DNA from: Bacteroidales bacterium
GTDB taxonomy: Bacteria; Bacteroidota; Bacteroidia; Bacteroidales; UBA932
Reading direction: 5' to 3'
Assembly: GCA_017501525.1 (NCBI GenBank)
Contig: JAFVWT010000014.1
Location: 1-41,942 of the forward strand
DNA: 41,942 nt
Shown here piece by piece: positions 7,991 through 33,548 of the stretch. The stretch's first letter is position 1; every line of letters starts with the position of its first letter. Under the pieces are notes generated by a model that did not search any database, was not told where the DNA came from, and saw nothing but the letters and a program-made list of their open reading frames with translations. A program made the position numbers and the translations under genes.

Positions 7991-9601
7991 TTATTTGTTG
8001 TTCTTTTTCTCTCTTGCGTGACGTTTGAATGTTTGGATACATTCGCGGCGAGGGATCACTACAGATACACCATTGTATGCAATCTCTTCGCGAAGAGTCT
8101 GTTTGATCTCTTCCATATTCTTTGGAAGGGGAACTACTACCCTGATGTGTGCAGGGTCAACACCTACACCAGCGCAGATAGATTCAAGTCTGCCGGTTCC
8201 GGCTGAGTCCTGTCCTCCGGTCATACCTGTTGTAAGGTTGTCGGAGATGATGATGACTACATTTGCGTTGTTGTTTACGCAGTCAAGAAGACCTGTGATA
8301 CCTGAGTGGGTAAATGTCGAGTCTCCGATAACTGCAAATGAAGGGAATTGTCCTGCATCAGAAGCACCCTTTGCCATTGTGATAGAGGCTCCCATATCTA
8401 CGGTAGAGTGGATTGCTCTAAATGGAGGTAGTGCTCCGAGTGTATAACATCCGATGTCGCTGAAGATTCTTGAATTTTCAAATTCTGCTGCAACCTCGTT
8501 AAGGGCTTTATACATATCTCTGTGTCCGCAACCCTGACACAATGCAGGAGGTCTTGAAACTACGATATCATCAGATTCGTGTGCCTTGAGTGGTTCTAAT
8601 CCAAGAGCTTTTCTTACAGAATCGGGGTTTAGTTCTCCCACTCTGGGTAGTTCTCCTGTCAGACGTCCCACGACTTCTACTTTGGATGATATTTTTTGCA
8701 GCATAATCTCTTCTGCCACGGGTTGGCCTTCTTCCATAACCATTACTTTTTTGATACCGTCAGACAGCATCTGCTCGATAAGGGTATCGGGAATGGGGTA
8801 ACGTGAAATTTTTAGAATGCCGTAAGGTGAACCTTGTGGATAGTTTTCCATCAAGTAGTTATATGCAATACCGCATGCAACTATTGCCATACTTTTATCG
8901 GTGCCCGGGATATATTTATTGCGAGGGTCGTTTGCAGATTCCTGTTCAAAAAGTTCCTGCTCCTGAAGCAATGTGTTATAACGAACTTTGGAATTGGCAG
9001 GAAGAAGAATCCATTGACGGGGATTCTCGGGGAATGAGCACTCGTTTTGAGGACGTTTCTGGTCGCATGTCTCCACCTCTGCACGAGAGTGTGCCATACG
9101 TGTGGTAACTCTCAACAATACAGGGATTTTGTATTTTTCAGAGAATTCGAATGCGTCGCGTACCATATCGTATGCTTCTTGTTGGGAAGCGGGTTCGAAT
9201 GTGGGAATGAATGAGAATTTTCCGTAGAATCTGGAATCTTGCTCGTTTTGTGAAGAGTGCATAGATGGGTCATCTGCAGCTACAACAACCAGACCACCAT
9301 TGGTTCCGGTCATGGCAGAGTTTACAAATGCATCGGCAGCTACATTCATACCTACATGTTTCATGCAAACCAATGCTCTTTTTCCCATATATGACATTCC
9401 GAGAGCCGCTTCCATTGCGGTCTTTTCGTTGGTGCACCATCTGCAGAATACTTTTTCAGACTCAGGGGTCGATTTCTGCATGTGTTGGATATATTCTGTT
9501 ATCTCGGTAGATGGGGTGCCCGGATAGGCATAGACCCCGGAAATACCGGAGTGAATTGCTGATAGGGCGATTGCTTCATCGCCTAAAAGTAGTCGTCTCA
9601 T
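7991..9601 (-). CDS. iorA: Indolepyruvate:ferredoxin oxidoreductase alpha subunit
   Basis: The thiamine-diphosphate-binding catalytic subunit, 536 residues from the ATG before RRLLLGDEAIALSA. An upstream TTG-type extension of 11 residues looks artefactual. The N-terminal pyrimidine domain carries YAYPGTPSTEI and EKTAMEAALGMSY. The C-terminal half has CQGCGHRDMYKALNE, SDIGCYTLG and the ThDP-Mg motif GDSTFTHSGITGLLDCVNNN. Classical IorA proteins end in a ferredoxin-like domain with two CxxCxxCxxxCP clusters. Here the chain stops soon after PRRECIQTFKRHA with no such cluster, so an external ferredoxin must take the electrons. It is first in the operon with iorB and divergent from panC. A -7 box lies 21 bp upstream. 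Confidence 0.93.
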   Translation of the reverse strand: MRRLLLGDEAIALSAIHSGISGVYAYPGTPSTEITEYIQHMQKSTPESEKVFCRWCTNEKTAMEAALGMSYMGKRALVCMKHVGMNVAADAFVNSAMTGTNGGLVVVAADDPSMHSSQNEQDSRFYGKFSFIPTFEPASQQEAYDMVRDAFEFSEKYKIPVLLRVTTRMAHSRAEVETCDQKRPQNECSFPENPRQWILLPANSKVRYNTLLQEQELFEQESANDPRNKYIPGTDKSMAIVACGIAYNYLMENYPQGSPYGILKISRYPIPDTLIEQMLSDGIKKVMVMEEGQPVAEEIMLQKISSKVEVVGRLTGELPRVGELNPDSVRKALGLEPLKAHESDDIVVSRPPALCQGCGHRDMYKALNEVAAEFENSRIFSDIGCYTLGALPPFRAIHSTVDMGASITMAKGASDAGQFPSFAVIGDSTFTHSGITGLLDCVNNNANVVIIISDNLTTGMTGGQDSAGTGRLESICAGVGVDPAHIRVVVPLPKNMEEIKQTLREEIAYNGVSVVIPRRECIQTFKRHAREKKNNK

Positions 9602-9622
9602 ATAAAATAGATTGTTATCTTT

Positions 9623-9654
9623 CAAAATTAGCACTAATTTTTTAATTGACCAAT
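9623..9654 (-). promoter_or_regulatory. Promoter of iorA-iorB
   Basis: On the minus strand, TAATTTTG (9630-9623) is a perfect -7 box and ATTG (9654-9651) stands 20 bp upstream in the -33 position. The leader to the ATG at 9601 is short. Confidence 0.55.
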
Positions 9655-17308: not shown

Positions 17309-19009
17309 ATGAGTATGGATAAAATTGAAGTATTTTGTGAAAGTCTTGGAAAGATAGTTGAATGTACTCCGGGTGAAACACTCAGCGAGTTGTCGCAAAG
17401 AGTTATGACGGGATGTAAATATCCTGTTGTGGCAGCACTTGTCGACAATATGTTGAAGGAGTTGTCCTTTAAGTTGTATACCTCTCACACTGTTCATTTT
17501 ATCGATTATACTCATCCTGACGGTCGGAGGACTTACAATCGTTCTCTTTCGATGGTTTTGCAGAAGGCGGTGGCAGATTTGTTCCCCCAGGCCCAATTGT
17601 ATCTTGAATATAATCTTCCAAACGGATTGTATGGGGTGTTGAGGCAAAGGTGTGATGGTCTCTCTTTAGAGGAGATTCCTTTGGGCTCAGAGCAAGTCTC
17701 GGCGATAAAGCAGAGAATGTCTGAGATAATTGCTGCCGATTTCCCTATAGTCAAGACGAAGATGCAGAATTCTGTAGCTTGTGAAATATTCAGAAGAAAT
17801 GGGCAGCCTTTAAAGAGTGCCCTCGTCTCTAATATGGAGAAGTTTTTTGTTTCTGTCTATAATATAGATGGTTATTCTGATACTTTCTATGGGCCAATGC
17901 TGGAACGGACATCTCAAATCTCACTCTTTGACCTTATTCCTTATTCCGGTGGCTTCTGCCTTCAGTCCCCTTCTGTCAGTGATCCTAATCGTATTTCAAG
18001 CTACAAATATCAGGACAAGCTGAGTGCTGTATTTAAAGAGAATGCTTCGTGGTGTTCAATTCTGGGGGCAAATGGTATAAACTCTGTCAATGACGCAATA
18101 CGCAATGGAAAAAGTAAGGATATGATAGCTGTAGCTGAGGCTCTGCACGAAAGAAAGTATGCTGAGATAGCAGATATGATCTATGGCAGGAGGGATAAAG
18201 TAAGGCTTGTGTTGATAGCAGGACCTTCCAGTAGCGGGAAAACAACTACATCGAAGAGATTATCTCTGCAGTGTAAAGTTTTGGGGCTCAATCCTAAGGT
18301 AATTGCAATGGATGATTATTTTGTGGATAGGGAGCATACTCCCAGAGATGAAAATGGGGAATATGATTTTGAAAGTATCTATGCCATGGATCTTGATTTT
18401 CTGGGTATGCAGCTAAATGAACTCTTCCAGGGTAAGGAGGTGGAACTTCCCAAGTTTGACTTTATACAGGGAAAGAGGGTCTCCAGTGGTAATTTTATGC
18501 GCCTTGATAAAGATGATATTCTGATCATGGAAGGGATTCATGCACTTAATCCTGAATTAACCAAACATATTGAGAGTGAGAAAGTATTCAGGGTATATGC
18601 TTCGGCTCTGACCACTTTGTCCATTGATGAGAACAATACCATCTCAACAGCAGATACAAGGATGCTAAGAAGGCTGGTCCGTGATAATCGTACAAGGGGA
18701 ATTGTCCCAGAGGAGACAATTTTGAGATGGCAGAGTGTTCGGGCAGGTGAGGAAAAGAATATTTTCCCATATCAGGAGAATGCAGATGTAATGTTCAATT
18801 CTTCTATTTTGTTTGAATTGCCATTGCTTAAATATTATGCTGAACCACTCCTGAAGAAAATTCCACCTTTGTCAAAGGGTTATGCCGAAAGTGTCAGAAT
18901 GTTGAAATTCCTCTCTTTGGTTCTTCCTCTCGATGCTGAAGATATTGCATTTATACCTCCTACTTCGGTTATGAGGGAATTTATTGGAGGCAGTACATTT
19001 GATTATTGA
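17309..19009 (+). CDS. TGS-domain nucleoside (uridine-type) kinase
   Basis: A 566-residue multidomain protein. Residues about 1-65 form a TGS-like ubiquitin fold. Residues about 70-270 resemble the editing/SAD region of threonyl-tRNA synthetase, including a YNRSLSMVL segment. The C-terminal half is a uridine kinase/phosphoribulokinase-type P-loop NTPase with IAGPSSSGKTTTSKRL (near 305-320), then AMDDYFVDREHTPRD and DFDFIQGKRV-like substrate motifs and IMEGIHALNPEL. Such fusions are common in Bacteroidota and Firmicutes and annotated as nucleoside kinases. The true substrate and the purpose of the synthetase-like half are not established. It is encoded 91 bp after uvrA. The first ATG is used; a second lies two codons on. 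Confidence 0.9.
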   Translation: MSMDKIEVFCESLGKIVECTPGETLSELSQRVMTGCKYPVVAALVDNMLKELSFKLYTSHTVHFIDYTHPDGRRTYNRSLSMVLQKAVADLFPQAQLYLEYNLPNGLYGVLRQRCDGLSLEEIPLGSEQVSAIKQRMSEIIAADFPIVKTKMQNSVACEIFRRNGQPLKSALVSNMEKFFVSVYNIDGYSDTFYGPMLERTSQISLFDLIPYSGGFCLQSPSVSDPNRISSYKYQDKLSAVFKENASWCSILGANGINSVNDAIRNGKSKDMIAVAEALHERKYAEIADMIYGRRDKVRLVLIAGPSSSGKTTTSKRLSLQCKVLGLNPKVIAMDDYFVDREHTPRDENGEYDFESIYAMDLDFLGMQLNELFQGKEVELPKFDFIQGKRVSSGNFMRLDKDDILIMEGIHALNPELTKHIESEKVFRVYASALTTLSIDENNTISTADTRMLRRLVRDNRTRGIVPEETILRWQSVRAGEEKNIFPYQENADVMFNSSILFELPLLKYYAEPLLKKIPPLSKGYAESVRMLKFLSLVLPLDAEDIAFIPPTSVMREFIGGSTFDY

Positions 19010-27770: not shown

Positions 27771-28814
27771 ATGGCACAAGAGATAGATATTACCACAATG
27801 CTGGAGATGATGGAGGAAGGTACACCTGTGATAGATGTGCGCTCACCCTCTGAATTTATGTATGCATCTATTCCGGGGGCTGTCTCAATACCCCTTTTCG
27901 ATGATGATGAGAGGGCTCAAGTGGGGACTATTTACAAAAAACAGAGTAAAGTGAAAGCGGTCCAGAAAGGGCTTGAATTTGTTGGTCCTAAGATGAAGGA
28001 TTTTTCCAAACGGGCGCTTGCATTGGATTCCCAGCAGCTTATAGTCCACTGTTGGAGAGGCGGTATGAGAAGCGGTGCTATGTCCTGGTTATTTGAGATG
28101 CTTGGGCTTACGTGTTATAGATTGGAAGGAGGGTATAAAGCATATAGAAATTATGTTCTTGATTTTTTCTCTCAGCCTATCAGGTTTGTAGTGCTGGGGG
28201 GACGTACAGGAGCGGGAAAAACAGATATTCTCAAACAGTTGGAGGCAATGGGGGAACAAGTGTTGGATTTGGAGGGACTTGCAAATCACAAAGGTTCTGC
28301 ATTTGGCTCATTGGGAGAGTCTGCACAGCCTACATCTGAGATGTTTGATCACTTGATATTCAATGTGCTAAGGCGTTTTGACAAAGACAGAGTCGTATGG
28401 GTGGAGAATGAAAGTATCAATATTGGAAAGGTCTTCATTCCACAGCCTTTGTGGAAACAGATCTCTCAGGCACCTATTGTAGTGGTAGATACTGAGTACG
28501 AAGTCCGTTTGGCAAGAATTATGAGGGTTTATGCCTATTTTCCTACTGAGTTACTCTGTGAGATGATTAAGAAAATTCAGAAACGGATGGGGTATGACAA
28601 TGCCCAAAAGGCATATGAGGCATGTTTGAATGGAGATAAACAACTGGCTGCAAGAATGTGTCTGGTTTATTACGATAAGCTTTATGATAGGGGATTAAAG
28701 ACTAATGAATCCCGAGATATACCGATTTTCTCGGTAAAATGTGATACTGAGAATGTCGAGGAAGTAGCGAAAAAAATAGTTTCATTAAATATTTTCAATA
28801 ATGGCGACCAATAA
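27771..28814 (+). CDS. mnmH: tRNA 2-selenouridine synthase
   Basis: A 347-residue enzyme (SelU/YbbB) that converts 2-thiouridine at wobble position 34 of Lys, Glu and Gln tRNAs to 2-selenouridine using selenophosphate, via a geranylated intermediate. An N-terminal rhodanese domain carries the catalytic Cys94 in IVHCWRGGMRS. A P-loop domain follows with GGRTGAGKT (143-151), then the EGLANHKGSAFG-like motif (DLEGLANHKGSAFG) and WVENESINIGK. The length is close to E. coli MnmH (364). It overlaps the following DsrE-type gene by 14 bp and is followed by selD, the source of its selenium donor, a self-consistent selenium module. selA and selB are not in the window. Confidence 0.96.
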   Translation: MAQEIDITTMLEMMEEGTPVIDVRSPSEFMYASIPGAVSIPLFDDDERAQVGTIYKKQSKVKAVQKGLEFVGPKMKDFSKRALALDSQQLIVHCWRGGMRSGAMSWLFEMLGLTCYRLEGGYKAYRNYVLDFFSQPIRFVVLGGRTGAGKTDILKQLEAMGEQVLDLEGLANHKGSAFGSLGESAQPTSEMFDHLIFNVLRRFDKDRVVWVENESINIGKVFIPQPLWKQISQAPIVVVDTEYEVRLARIMRVYAYFPTELLCEMIKKIQKRMGYDNAQKAYEACLNGDKQLAARMCLVYYDKLYDRGLKTNESRDIPIFSVKCDTENVEEVAKKIVSLNIFNNGDQ

Positions 28815-29145
28815 AAAAGTTACAATTGTAATTAATCGAAACGGAATGGGGCATGCAGATGAGCAATTGACCTCGGTTCTTATTAAGAATTATTTGACAC
28901 TTTTAATGGAAGGAGACCTTCCTGCCTATATATGTCTTTATGCGGAAGGTGTTAAGCTTGCAATAGACGGTTCTTCTGTTATAGAGGAGCTCAGGGCGTT
29001 GGAAGAAGCAGGTGTTAACATCCTTATATGCAAGACATGTCTCAATTTTTATAATGCACTTGACAAGGTGGCTGCCGGTACAGTTGCGACAATGGTTGAT
29101 ATTATGGGTGCGCAAACTAATTGTGATAAAGTGATAGTTCTTTAG
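28801..29145 (+). CDS. YedF-like DsrE-fold selenium-metabolism protein
   Basis: A 114-residue protein resembling the C-terminal DsrE-like half of YedF, a protein repeatedly found beside selD and selenium genes. It has the expected VTIVINRNGMGHADEQL start and the CKTC motif (Cys77, Cys80) in GVNILICKTCLNFY. Full-length YedF (about 200 residues) has a TusA-like N-terminal domain with its own Cys; that part is missing here, and neither the preceding nor following gene supplies it. Inferred role: a sulfur/selenium carrier or accessory factor for SelD or MnmH. It overlaps mnmH by 14 bp and lies 7 bp before selD. The exact function is not known for the family. Confidence 0.85.
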   Translation: MATNKKVTIVINRNGMGHADEQLTSVLIKNYLTLLMEGDLPAYICLYAEGVKLAIDGSSVIEELRALEEAGVNILICKTCLNFYNALDKVAAGTVATMVDIMGAQTNCDKVIVL

Positions 29146-29152
29146 TTGCATT

Positions 29153-30184
29153 ATGGAACAGATAAGATTGACGCAGTTCAGTCCCGGTGCTGGATGCGGA
29201 TGTAAAATTGCCCCGAGGGAGTTGGAGGAGATTCTCAAGGGGAGCCGTTCAAAACTCTCGTTTCCTGAATTGTTGGTTGGAAATGATACTAAAGATGATG
29301 CGGCTGTTTATGATATCGGTGGAGGCAAAGCGATAATCAGTACTACCGATTTCTTTACTCCAATAGTAGATGACCCCTATAATTTTGGAAGGATTGCAGC
29401 GACAAATGCGATAAGTGATATCTATGCAATGGGGGGTAGACCTATAATGGCTATAGGAATTTTAGGTTGGCCTTTAGACAAATTACCTTCGGCTACCGCT
29501 TCTGTAGTGATTAGTGGAGCGCGCCAGGTGTGTGATGATGCCGGTATCCCGTTGGCTGGTGGACACAGTATAAATATTTCAGATCCCATTTTTGGTCTTG
29601 CAGTGACAGGCATTATCGATTCTCATAAGGTGAAGATGAATAGCGGAGCAAAAGTTGGGGATTTGTTGTTCCTGACCAAACCTATTGGTATAGGTCTTGT
29701 TGCATCGGCTGAAAAGTTTGGAGTGGTTCGTGATGAAGATAGGAAAAGGGCTTTGGAACTTATGACACGACTTAATCTTCCAGGTGCTAGGTTGTCAGAT
29801 CTCGATGTGGTCCACGCTATAACGGATGTGACAGGATTTGCCCTTGCAGGACACTCGATAGAGATGGCTCAAGGCAGTGGTCTTATGGCGGTTATTGATT
29901 ATAAGTCGGTACCCAGGATTGAGGGAATCGAGTATTATATTGAGCAGGAGTGTATGCCGGGGGGAACTTTTAGAAATTTTGCAAGTTATGGGGATAAGTG
30001 TGATATGGATCCCGCTTACAAACCATTGATGTGCGATCCTCAAACGTCAGGAGGATTGTTGGTGGCGGTTGACCCTTCAGGTGTGGAAGAGGCCAAAAGG
30101 TGTGTTGAAGAGTGTGGACACGAATTTTATAAAATAGGATATATGGCGGAATGTGATGGAGATAAATATTTGAAAGTGATATAA
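29153..30184 (+). CDS. selD: Selenide, water dikinase (selenophosphate synthetase)
   Basis: A 343-residue enzyme that makes selenophosphate from selenide and ATP. The N-terminal active loop SPGAGCGCKIAP contains Cys15 (the E. coli Cys17 equivalent) and Lys18. It is the Cys form, so no selenocysteine recoding is needed and no in-frame TGA occurs. DDAAVYDIGGGKAIISTTDFF and AATNAISDIYAMGG supply the metal- and ATP-binding Asp residues, and LCDPQTSGGLL is also conserved. Its neighbours mnmH and the DsrE-type gene show that selenophosphate serves tRNA selenation here. A selenoprotein pathway cannot be judged from this window. Six bases separate it from nadB. Confidence 0.97.
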   Translation: MEQIRLTQFSPGAGCGCKIAPRELEEILKGSRSKLSFPELLVGNDTKDDAAVYDIGGGKAIISTTDFFTPIVDDPYNFGRIAATNAISDIYAMGGRPIMAIGILGWPLDKLPSATASVVISGARQVCDDAGIPLAGGHSINISDPIFGLAVTGIIDSHKVKMNSGAKVGDLLFLTKPIGIGLVASAEKFGVVRDEDRKRALELMTRLNLPGARLSDLDVVHAITDVTGFALAGHSIEMAQGSGLMAVIDYKSVPRIEGIEYYIEQECMPGGTFRNFASYGDKCDMDPAYKPLMCDPQTSGGLLVAVDPSGVEEAKRCVEECGHEFYKIGYMAECDGDKYLKVI

Positions 30185-30189
30185 AAAAG

Positions 30190-31752
30190 ATGCTTAAATA
30201 TTTGGTTATAGGGAGCGGATTGGCAGGTCTGTACACTGCTTATAAAGCTTCTAAAATCGGTTCTGTAATGTTGCTTACAAAGAAAGGAATCAGGGTGAGC
30301 AACTCTTATAATGCCCAGGGTGGTATTGCTGCAGTTACAGATATTGAGGATGACCCTGAAATTCATTTTACGGATACAGTTATTGCAGGGAGGGGATTGT
30401 GTGAGGATAAGGCTGTTGATATTCTGGTAAAAGAGGGACCTCAGCGTATCAGGGAGATTATTGAGGATGGAATGAAGTTCGATACCGAAAATGGAAAATT
30501 GTCATTGGGTCTTGAGGGGGGACATCACCGTAAGCGTATTCTTCACGCAGGGGGAGACTCCACAGGAAGATATATGACAGAGTTCCTTATCTCGAAAGTG
30601 GAAGCCGATTCCAATATAGAAATCAGGGAAAATGTCTCAGTGATCGACTTTCTGGTGGAAAATGGAGTCTGTTATGGAGCCCGTTGTTGGGATGAGGAGA
30701 GGGGGAAAGAGGAATTGATATATGCTGAACATACATTCTTGACAAGCGGTGGAACTGCTGCGATCTATACCAGAACTACAAACCCCCAGACATCTGTAGG
30801 AGATGGTATAGCAATGGCTTATAAGGCCGGTTGCCGTATTGTAGATATGGAATTTATCCAATTTCACCCCTCGGCACTATTTATTGAAAATTCTCCTAAT
30901 GCCTTCCTGATAAGTGAAGCGGTCAGGGGTGAGGGGGCACATTTGCTAAATAAGGCAGGCAAGAGGTTCATGTTGCCTATTCATGAATTGGCGGAACTTG
31001 CCCCTCGTGATATTGTGGCCCGTTCCATTTTCAAGCAGATGGCAGTAGATGACCGCCCTTTTGTGACATTGTCTTTGAAACATCTTAACCCTGAGAAGAT
31101 AAAAAGGAGATTTCCTACCATATATGAGAAATGTAAGGAGTGCGGTTATGATTTGACAAAGAGCATCCCTGTGGCTCCGGCAGCCCACTATACTGTCGGA
31201 GGGGTCGCTTCTGACGAATTCGGCCGCTCGGATGTCTCGCGTCTATATGTTTGCGGTGAGATTGCTTCTACCGGTATTATGGGGGCTAATAGATTGGCAT
31301 CCAATTCGTTGTTAGAGTGTTTGGTTTTTGCGGCAAGGGCTATCGAAAAGTCAAAAGAGGTGGGAGAGATATCAGATATCCCCCATTTTGAACCAAAGTA
31401 TCATAAAGATTCTTCTCGTCAGGAGAGGTATTTGCAGCTTAAGTCGCAGATTGCCCACACGATGAACAATTGTTCTGGAATAATCCGTTCAGAGTTATTG
31501 CTTTCTACGGGTTTGAATCTTATAAAGAAGGAATTAAGGGATTTGGGCACTGAAAAGAATGAGTATTATGACGAACTTTCAAGGAAACTTCTTACTGTCG
31601 CCTATCTTATAATGACCGGTGCAAGATTCCGTAGAGAGAGTCGCGGAGGACATTATCGTGAAGATTATCCCACTCTTAAGGAGGAATTTGCAGTCCATAC
31701 CATTCAACAGAAAGGTAAAGAGTTGCAAACAAAAAAAGTTAATGAAGAATAA
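30190..31752 (+). CDS. nadB: L-aspartate oxidase
   Basis: A 520-residue flavoprotein that oxidises L-aspartate to iminoaspartate, the first step of de novo NAD synthesis. It has the FAD Rossmann motif VIGSGLAGLYTA (7-18), the NAQGGIAAV segment, HRKRILHAGGDSTGR, the active-site EFIQFHPSAL and EAVRGEGAHLLNKAGKRFM, HYTVGGV and NRLASNSLLECLVF, all standard for NadB. In anaerobes fumarate serves as electron acceptor. It lies 5 bp after selD and 17 bp before the fused NadC-NadA gene, so the complete path from aspartate to nicotinate mononucleotide is in one operon. Confidence 0.97.
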   Translation: MLKYLVIGSGLAGLYTAYKASKIGSVMLLTKKGIRVSNSYNAQGGIAAVTDIEDDPEIHFTDTVIAGRGLCEDKAVDILVKEGPQRIREIIEDGMKFDTENGKLSLGLEGGHHRKRILHAGGDSTGRYMTEFLISKVEADSNIEIRENVSVIDFLVENGVCYGARCWDEERGKEELIYAEHTFLTSGGTAAIYTRTTNPQTSVGDGIAMAYKAGCRIVDMEFIQFHPSALFIENSPNAFLISEAVRGEGAHLLNKAGKRFMLPIHELAELAPRDIVARSIFKQMAVDDRPFVTLSLKHLNPEKIKRRFPTIYEKCKECGYDLTKSIPVAPAAHYTVGGVASDEFGRSDVSRLYVCGEIASTGIMGANRLASNSLLECLVFAARAIEKSKEVGEISDIPHFEPKYHKDSSRQERYLQLKSQIAHTMNNCSGIIRSELLLSTGLNLIKKELRDLGTEKNEYYDELSRKLLTVAYLIMTGARFRRESRGGHYREDYPTLKEEFAVHTIQQKGKELQTKKVNEE

Positions 31753-31769
31753 TTAAATATTTGACAAAT

Positions 31770-33548
31770 ATGAGTAACGAACAGCTTATTGAACGTTTGA
31801 TTGACCTGGCATTTGAAGAGGATATTGCTACAGGTGATATTACTACTGAGTCTATTATCCCTGAGTCTTCAAAGGCTATTGCTACAATGACTGCAAAGGG
31901 GGATGGAGTTATTTCGGGCATAGATATAGTTGAGAAAGTTTTTAGAAGATTCTCAAATGAGGTGGAGTTTACCCCTTTTAAGAACAATGGGGATAGAGTG
32001 ACAAAAGGGGAGGTGATTCTCAAAATCGAAGCAAGTTATCCCACCCTTTTGATGGCAGAAAGGACCGCTTTGAATTTCTTTCAGAGGATGTCGGGTATCG
32101 CTACCGAGACAGCAAAATATGTCGCGGAGTTGGAGGGTACTCATACTCAGCTTCTGGATACCCGTAAGACAGCTCCCGGTATGCGTGTGACAGATAAGAT
32201 GGCAGTTAAAGATGGTGGCGGAACAAACCACCGTATGGGATTGTACGATATGGTGATGATTAAGGATAATCATATCAAAATGGCGGGTACTATTGCAAAA
32301 GCTGTAGAGCAGGTTAGGGCAAAGGTTCCTGCAGATATAAAAGTGGAGGTCGAGACAACAAATCTTGTTGAGGTGCAGGAGGCTATTGATGCAAAGGCCG
32401 ATATCATTATGCTCGATAATATGTCTAATGAAGATATGGCAAAGGCCGTTGAATTGATAGCAGGTAGGGCAAAGACTGAGGCTTCAGGAAACATGTCAAT
32501 TCCGAGACTGAAGGAGGTGGCTGCCACAGGTGTCGATTTCATTAGTGTCGGAGCATTGACCCACTCTGTAAAGGGATTGGATATCAGTATGAATATCTCT
32601 TTGAAGAAAGAACATCTTATCAGCGAAATTCTCAGATATAAAAAGGAGAAGAATGCTGTTATTTTTGCCCATTATTATGTTGCTCCTGAGATTCAGGATA
32701 TTGCAGATTTTGTGGGTGATTCTTTGGAACTCTCTAAAAAGGCTGCGAGTGTCGATGCCGATTGTATTGTATTCTGCGGTGTGAAGTTTATGGGCGAGAC
32801 TGCTGCAGTCATTTCTCCAAATAAGAAGGTGATTTTACCTGTAGTGGATGCAGGTTGTTCTTTGGCTGATGGTGTGACCGGTGAGGAACTTGCTCAATGG
32901 AAGAGGGAAAATCCAGATGGTGTAGTGGTTAGTTATGTAAATACAACAGCAGATACCAAAGCATTTACAGATGTATGCTGTACTTCAGCCAATGCGGTGA
33001 GAGTGGCAGAAGCGGTGGCTCAGGGTAAGGTGCCCGGTTTGCCTAAAACTGATAAGATTGTATTTGTCCCTGATGAGAATCTTGGAAGATATATAAATCA
33101 TAAGGGTGATTTAGGAATGAAACTATGGAGAGGTAATTGCGTTGTCCATCAGGAAATTAGTGCAGAACTGATTCTGCAACGTGCTCAGGAGTATCCACAA
33201 GCCGATATCCTTATCCATCCAGAATCATCTTGTTCGGGGGATCCTCGTGTAATGTCACATCCTCGTTGTTATTTCTACTCGACTTCTGGAATTTTGAATC
33301 ATGTCGCTTCTTCTCCTAAAAATCATTTTGTGATTGCTACAGAAACAGGTGTGATGCACAAATTACAGAAAGATAATCTCGGCAAGGTCTTTATCCCTGT
33401 ATCTGATCAGGCAGTTTGTAAGGAGATGAAGAAAGTTACTCTTGAGGCACTATACTACGCTTTGAAAAATGACAGATATGTAGTGCAAGTGCCAGAAGAA
33501 GTCGCTAAAAAAGCTATTATTCCTGTGGAGAGGATGATGGCTCTATAA
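31770..33548 (+). CDS. NadC-NadA fusion: quinolinate phosphoribosyltransferase plus quinolinate synthase
   Basis: One uninterrupted 592-residue frame holds two enzymes. Residues about 1-277 are a complete NadC: the LDTRKTAPGMR active-site strand, KDGGGTNHRMGLYDMVMIKDNH, DIIMLDNMS and SVGALTHSVKGLDISM. Residues about 283-592 are a complete NadA: AHYYVAPEIQDIADFVGDSL, then the three cluster cysteines Cys363 (DAGCSLAD), Cys457 (WRGNCVVH) and Cys550 (QAVCKEM) expected to bind the 4Fe-4S cluster, ending with VERMMAL. The linker is only a few residues. Together with NadB it covers iminoaspartate to quinolinate to nicotinate mononucleotide. An internal ATG (32589, Met274) could also initiate a separate NadA. 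The ATG at 31770 is chosen over an upstream TTG. The two are usually separate genes. Confidence 0.96.
   Translation: MSNEQLIERLIDLAFEEDIATGDITTESIIPESSKAIATMTAKGDGVISGIDIVEKVFRRFSNEVEFTPFKNNGDRVTKGEVILKIEASYPTLLMAERTALNFFQRMSGIATETAKYVAELEGTHTQLLDTRKTAPGMRVTDKMAVKDGGGTNHRMGLYDMVMIKDNHIKMAGTIAKAVEQVRAKVPADIKVEVETTNLVEVQEAIDAKADIIMLDNMSNEDMAKAVELIAGRAKTEASGNMSIPRLKEVAATGVDFISVGALTHSVKGLDISMNISLKKEHLISEILRYKKEKNAVIFAHYYVAPEIQDIADFVGDSLELSKKAASVDADCIVFCGVKFMGETAAVISPNKKVILPVVDAGCSLADGVTGEELAQWKRENPDGVVVSYVNTTADTKAFTDVCCTSANAVRVAEAVAQGKVPGLPKTDKIVFVPDENLGRYINHKGDLGMKLWRGNCVVHQEISAELILQRAQEYPQADILIHPESSCSGDPRVMSHPRCYFYSTSGILNHVASSPKNHFVIATETGVMHKLQKDNLGKVFIPVSDQAVCKEMKKVTLEALYYALKNDRYVVQVPEEVAKKAIIPVERMMAL

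Follow-up and report, generated by a model that had tools for sequence, protein, structure and literature searches.

A gut bacterium of the order Bacteroidales very probably carries out two consecutive steps of NAD synthesis with one bifunctional enzyme, derived from a nadB-nadC-nadA operon in the ancestor of its genus. The enzyme is encoded by a single gene within a 41,942-nucleotide stretch of DNA (hereafter the window), in which quinolinate phosphoribosyltransferase (NadC) is followed in the same polypeptide by quinolinate synthase (NadA). Its reading frame and comparison with related genomes suggest that the fusion is genuine, old and functional. The window corresponds to contig C12, part of a 1.53-Mb draft genome that is 83% complete and contains only one match to the fusion. 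We infer that the genus in question is that of Candidatus Coprenecus, which NCBI taxonomy places in the Rikenellaceae of the Bacteroidales.

Two complete enzymes in one reading frame

The original prediction, made from the letters of the window, was that one stop-free frame holds full-length NadC and full-length NadA, and this is borne out (Table 1). The 592-residue translation contains a single stop, the terminal one. At the base composition of the window, a frame of 592 codons would remain open by chance with a probability of about 8e-18, and the other five frames of the same stretch carry 13 to 52 stops each. Pfam matches follow one another along the protein as QRPTase_N (residues 23-108), QRPTase_C (110-274) and NadA (286-590). 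Both halves also score above the curated cut-offs of NCBIfam models. The nadC model TIGR00078 matches residues 11-276 over profile positions 2-269 of 269 (332.6 bits against a cut-off of 198.4), and residues 280-592 match both the whole profile of the nadA model TIGR00550 (313.7 bits against 262.9) and the nadA model NF006878 (377.4 bits against 294). No fusion model is among the NCBIfam matches to the frame.

Table 1. Coordinates of the nadC-nadA fusion and neighbouring features in the window, and of the NadB-NadC fusions in genus g10
Feature	Sequence	Position	Strand	Details
nadC-nadA fused gene	window	31770..33548	+	592 aa; Pfam and NCBIfam matches, genus-wide occurrence
NadC part (quinolinate phosphoribosyltransferase)	window	31770..32597	+	residues 1-276; TIGR00078, QRPTase_N, QRPTase_C, alignment to chain 1x1o
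NadA part (quinolinate synthase)	window	32607..33545	+	residues 280-592; TIGR00550, NF006878, chain 5ktm; Cys363, Cys457, Cys550
nadB (L-aspartate oxidase), upstream neighbour	window	30190..31752	+	TIGR00551, 490.7 bits against a cut-off of 452.75
Junction	window	32598..32603	+	Ser277 and Leu278; unfused relatives have the NadA start Met at the latter position
ATG, Met274 of the NadC ending DISMNI	window	32589..32591	+	same Met in unfused NadC
NadB-NadC fusion	L111	1402-4017		genus g10
NadB-NadC fusion	L112	2271-4748		genus g10
NadB-NadC fusion	L113	2271-4790		genus g10
NadB-NadC fusion	L114	2308-4848		genus g10
NadB-NadC fusion	L115	2629-5172		genus g10

Alignment to solved structures extends over nearly all of both parts: chain 1x1o covers residues 12-275 (NadC) and chain 5ktm covers residues 283-591 (NadA). 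The active-site motifs and the three cluster cysteines had been predicted to be intact, and the structure-chain alignments agree. LDTRKT, GGxNHR, KxNH, EVE and LDN, which we take to be the substrate-binding motifs of NadC, are all present in the NadC part (alignment to 1x1o, 1qap and 5hup). C363, C457 and C550, the 4Fe-4S cluster cysteines of NadA, are matched by cysteines in 5ktm, and all three are conserved in every one of the 18 fused copies.

Taken singly, the two halves are ordinary members of their families. The N-terminal 276 residues form a complete member of the NadC family (TIGR00078; PF02749 plus PF01729), with the difference that the chain runs on into NadA without a stop. The C-terminal 313 residues are likewise complete as a member of the NadA family (TIGR00550, NF006878; PF02445), including the three cluster cysteines, but this part has no start methionine of its own and Leu278 is found there instead. 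The C-terminal part would thus use a 4Fe-4S cluster to make quinolinate from iminoaspartate and dihydroxyacetone phosphate, and the N-terminal part would convert quinolinate and PRPP to nicotinate mononucleotide.

The fusion occurs throughout one genus

Since the window is a draft contig, the continuous frame might in principle reflect an error of sequencing or assembly that removed a stop codon. We consider the probability of this negligible because the same full-length, stop-free frame recurs, at 64-70% identity, in 17 of the genus's 18 other genomes, and the junction could be aligned in all 18 copies. NadC-NadA chains were looked for in other genomes and set on trees, and unbroken ones are present in 18 of the 19 genomes of this genus, the window's own included, and in this one genus only among the matches listed. 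The nineteenth genome (G015) has NadA residues 312-591 only, at the end of a contig.

Fusions were called only from frames split at stops, or from matches to both halves without an internal stop. Among the matches listed for a family sample of 398 genomes, unbroken matches to both halves occur only in the 18 Coprenecus-genus genomes. With an E limit of 1e-100, such matches were found in two genomes of an order sample of 393 (G000 and G004) and in G000 alone of a phylum sample of 395. Thus no unbroken NadC-NadA fusion lies outside the genus among the matches listed for these three samples, which overlap and in which distant fusions could be missed at the E limits used. Nor was there an unbroken both-half match among those listed for three further phyla (198, 249 and 151 genomes), namely those of the Desulforhopalus, Oscillospiraceae and Anaerolineae genomes L059, L110 and L064, in searches that were less sensitive and, at E limits of 1e-50, 1e-85 and 1e-80, had less reach than those of the order and phylum samples. 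In a second genome collection, seven of the best 80 of 418 confirmed loci are fused, all in genomes already counted (loci L031-L035, L037 and L038 are contigs of G018, G012, G014, G010, G017, G006 and G016, respectively, and not extra genomes).

Several candidates and one alignment were set aside. Long open-frame values, for example that of L103/G1181, were not taken as further fusions, as such values can read through stops. The 651-residue NadA frame of G1283 (L137) has an N-terminal half without a Pfam match and was taken as a chance open frame. A first alignment that included NadA-only and NadC-only rows gave the NadA-only rows identities of 21-32%, versus about 50% for most of them when aligned alone, and was read as misaligned.

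A junction without an added linker

Other Bacteroidales (for example L126, L042 and L053) have nadB, nadC and nadA side by side in the same order as in the window, homologous throughout, but at least one stop or frame change separates their nadC from nadA. These unfused relatives reveal what the fusion replaced. Unfused NadC ends in DISMNIQVEK (L126) or DISMNIQVQ (L036), and in 8 of 10 unfused pairs examined an ATG stands 22 residues ahead of the NadA motif AHYY. In the window's fusion AHYY starts at residue 300, which places the old NadA start at residue 278, the leucine that follows DISMNI-Ser. The claim that there is almost no linker is therefore correct, Leu278 being two residues after DISMNI. 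The distance from the nadC stop to the ATG taken as the nadA start is 1-25 nt in nine of ten adjacent unfused pairs and 85 nt in the tenth.

Measured against relatives with adjacent nadC and nadA, the fusion has lost the NadC tail together with its stop codon, as well as the spacer and the NadA start codon, with no linker added. In the model that we favor, this loss would have taken place in a nadB-nadC-nadA operon of an ancestor of the Coprenecus genus and left a linker-free product. The old NadA start position is leucine in 16 of the 18 fused copies; the other two, L002 and L003, carry 3 to 4 inserted residues there. A single fusion event is favored by the near-identical junction in most members of the genus.

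Could NadA also, or even mainly, be made as a separate protein, through an internal start or by cleavage? An ATG is present just before the junction, at Met274, in 18 of 18 copies, and it had been suggested as a start from which separate NadA might be made. This suggestion did not hold up. The methionine is part of DISMNI, the conserved end of NadC, and unfused NadC has it too, so the ATG is no evidence for a separate NadA. In addition, the true counterpart of the old start is the leucine described above, and in at least five of the leucine copies (L008, L010, L013, L015 and L016) its codon is CTT, which is no start codon. We regard separate production of NadA as improbable.

Of 12 genus pairs compared, 8 have unsaturated dS in both halves, with dN/dS values of 0.00-0.08 (NadC) and 0.02-0.14 (NadA); some of these pairs are very close (dS about 0.04), so that their ratios rest on few changes. 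The other four are all of the pairs that involve the window's own copy, and in these dS is saturated in one or both halves. Both halves of the fusion are under purifying selection. Together with the genus-wide conservation, this supports the predicted working bifunctional enzyme, the full-length product of which would be stable and active in both steps.

Probable re-splitting in the genus of Ca. Minthomonas

Ca. Minthomonas equi and UBA1722 belong to a genus (g2; loci L049, L048 and L136) in which nadC adjoins nadB, and NadA is either on another contig (L136) or was not found. The nadB of L049 is in two overlapping frames, due to a frameshift or an error. In phylogenies, g2 falls inside the fused clade with NadA, NadC+NadA, NadB and the three genes combined, and weakly so with NadC. 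The trees were built from chosen subsets of rows: 52 NadC and 50 NadA in the wider trees, 35 for NadC+NadA, 38 for NadB and 26 for the three-gene tree. From the last of these the NadA of L130 was omitted, given its very long branch in the wider trees, and UBA1722 is included without NadA.

Forcing the fused rows into one clade lowers the log-likelihood of the three-gene tree by 28 units (AU p 0.046), a post hoc comparison in that the question of splitting in g2 was framed after the first tree had been seen. The same constraint is not rejected at 0.05 with NadA (0.15), NadC+NadA (0.052) or NadB (0.26), and the g2 NadA branch is long. Based on these placements, it is probable that g2 descends from a fused ancestor and that the fusion was later split. 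Given that its genes are now separate, this probable ancestry implies that the fusion is not indispensable.

Some other relatives have unexpected placements or gene content. At locus L036 (UBA7332, genome G517), nadC and nadA are separate, with two in-frame stops, and share 67% identity with the fusion. The genome is coded as belonging to another family (f3) and its genes fall near f1 in the trees, which possibly reflects transfer or a classification issue. The NadB, NadC and NadA of L045, from a bin named Bacteroides sp., fall with Odoribacter in the trees, so this bin is likely mislabelled. The de novo route to NAD seems to have been widely lost in the family: among the matches listed at E 0.001, 289 of the 398 family genomes have neither NadC nor NadA, as against none of the 19 in the genus.

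A NadB-NadC fusion in another genus of the family

Fusion in this pathway involves another pair of enzymes as well. In five genomes of genus g10 (G146, G202, G207, G212 and G242), NadB and NadC form a single stop-free frame of 826-872 residues, and NadA is the separate next gene in all five. As in Coprenecus, neighbours of the same three-gene set are joined, but the pair of enzymes is a different one and the two kinds of fusion are apart on the trees. A methionine is present at the start position of separate NadC in the fusions of L112 and L114.

Frames were read for 15 of the 23 g10 genomes with a match. Five are fused, eight have separate genes, one is cut by a contig end (G217) and one is interrupted by a run of N (G175) that would fit a NadB-NadC fusion. 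For the remaining eight genomes, no NadC row among the matches listed has a frame long enough for such a fusion. The four of the five NadB-NadC rows used in the NadC+NadA tree form one clade, away from Coprenecus, and on this phylogenetic reading the NadB-NadC fusion arose apart from the Coprenecus fusion. The separate-gene genome G222 (L121) falls among the NadB-NadC rows in the wider trees, where the branching order is not settled; L121 is absent from the NadC+NadA, NadB and three-gene trees, and the NadB-NadC fusion may have arisen once or more than once. Overall, the family presents a case of repeated and probably reversible fusion.

Why might the fusion be kept?

The gain from a bifunctional NadC-NadA enzyme, if any, would lie in fixed 1:1 amounts of the two activities and closeness of the two sites, because both enzymes are in one chain. 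NadC enzymes are dimers with a shared active site. In the simplest picture, the fusion would dimerize via NadC, with two NadA parts attached.

One account compatible with the bifunctional enzyme is that the fusion is near-neutral, i.e., that a small deletion was fixed with no functional gain beyond the two activities. We give this somewhat less than an even chance. With a spacer of 1-25 nt in nine of ten unfused pairs, one small deletion would be enough, and both the second fusion of neighbours in the same family (NadB-NadC) and the probable later splitting are in line with it. However, the fusion has been kept in all 18 genus genomes in which the locus is readable, including five in which nadB is not adjacent.

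A second compatible account is that the fusion is kept because it channels the quinolinate made by the NadA part to the active site of the NadC part. The two steps are consecutive, no linker separates the enzymes and the fusion has long been retained across the genus. The NadB-NadC fusion of genus g10 hints at physical contact among the three enzymes. Against this, quinolinate is a stable metabolite, and channelling is thus not required by the chemistry. The more labile intermediate is iminoaspartate, which passes from NadB to NadA, yet NadB-NadA is not the fused pair. Further, Ca. Minthomonas, with its split genes, suggests that a fused enzyme can be dispensed with. On balance, we think it unlikely that channelling explains retention. 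The original prediction also raised the tethering of the oxygen-sensitive NadA to its consumer; nothing found here supports a protective effect of this against oxygen. Comparably doubtful is a broader proposal, in which NadB, NadC and NadA would form a three-enzyme assembly in this family with NadC as the hub. Both fusions would then record contacts through which iminoaspartate and quinolinate are passed, and the assembly could come apart, as in Ca. Minthomonas.

Genomic context and NAD salvage

The original prediction placed nadB just before the fusion, completing the route. This is so in the window, where nadB ends 17 nt upstream, and more generally at 13 of the 18 genus loci, where the distance is 13-35 nt. 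It does not extend to the other five loci, where nadB is 0.8-3 kb away: the gap is about 790-807 nt in four of them, and about 3 kb with other genes in between in one. At the three loci examined of the four with a 0.8-kb gap (L031, L032 and L037), the space is filled by a gene on the opposite strand that looks aquaporin-like. The fusion persists at loci where nadB is no longer close by.

The salvage enzyme PncB (TIGR01514) was found in 15 of the 19 genus genomes. In the other four (G000, G001, G004 and G010), searches found neither TIGR01514 nor PF04095, the latter of which was found in the comparison genomes G009 and G011. G004 is 99% complete, two others of the four are 86% complete and the last is the window's own genome, so absence could be a draft gap in three of the four. 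These genomes do not form one clade in the three-gene tree. With neither salvage family found in these four genomes, the fusion may be their sole route into NAD.

Relation to known fusions

Among the papers listed in searches of an open-access library, which includes few subscription journals or preprints, no NadC-NadA or NadB-NadC fusion is described in a title or abstract opening. Fusions between neighbours in a pathway are familiar events, and NadA is already known from a fusion protein, as plant quinolinate synthase is fused to a SufE domain. The partner in the plant protein is a cluster-assembly domain, whereas in Coprenecus it is the next enzyme of the pathway.

Fused pathway neighbours point to enzymes that possibly work together. 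With two fusions and a probable re-splitting in one family, fused, adjacent and separate forms of NadB, NadC and NadA are available for a natural comparison, and the Coprenecus fusion is a ready single-chain protein for tests of quinolinate channelling. The gene also serves as a warning for annotation pipelines, in that one frame scores as both NadA and NadC.

Other genes in the window

Three other proteins encoded in the window match only part of a model, and below its cut-off. The 566-residue protein at 17309-19009 is uridine-kinase-like at residues 297-497 only, and has no NCBIfam assignment outside this region. The protein at 7991-9634 (547 residues) resembles the alpha subunit of indolepyruvate ferredoxin oxidoreductase up to position 542 of a 595-position model. 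Its C-terminal end is missing; in this subunit, a ferredoxin-like part is usual at the C-terminal end. Between mnmH (27771-28814) and selD (29153-30184), a YedF-like gene (28801-29145) encodes 114 residues that correspond to positions 82-193 of the 194-position model TIGR03527 (100 bits against a cut-off of 110), the N-terminal part being missing.
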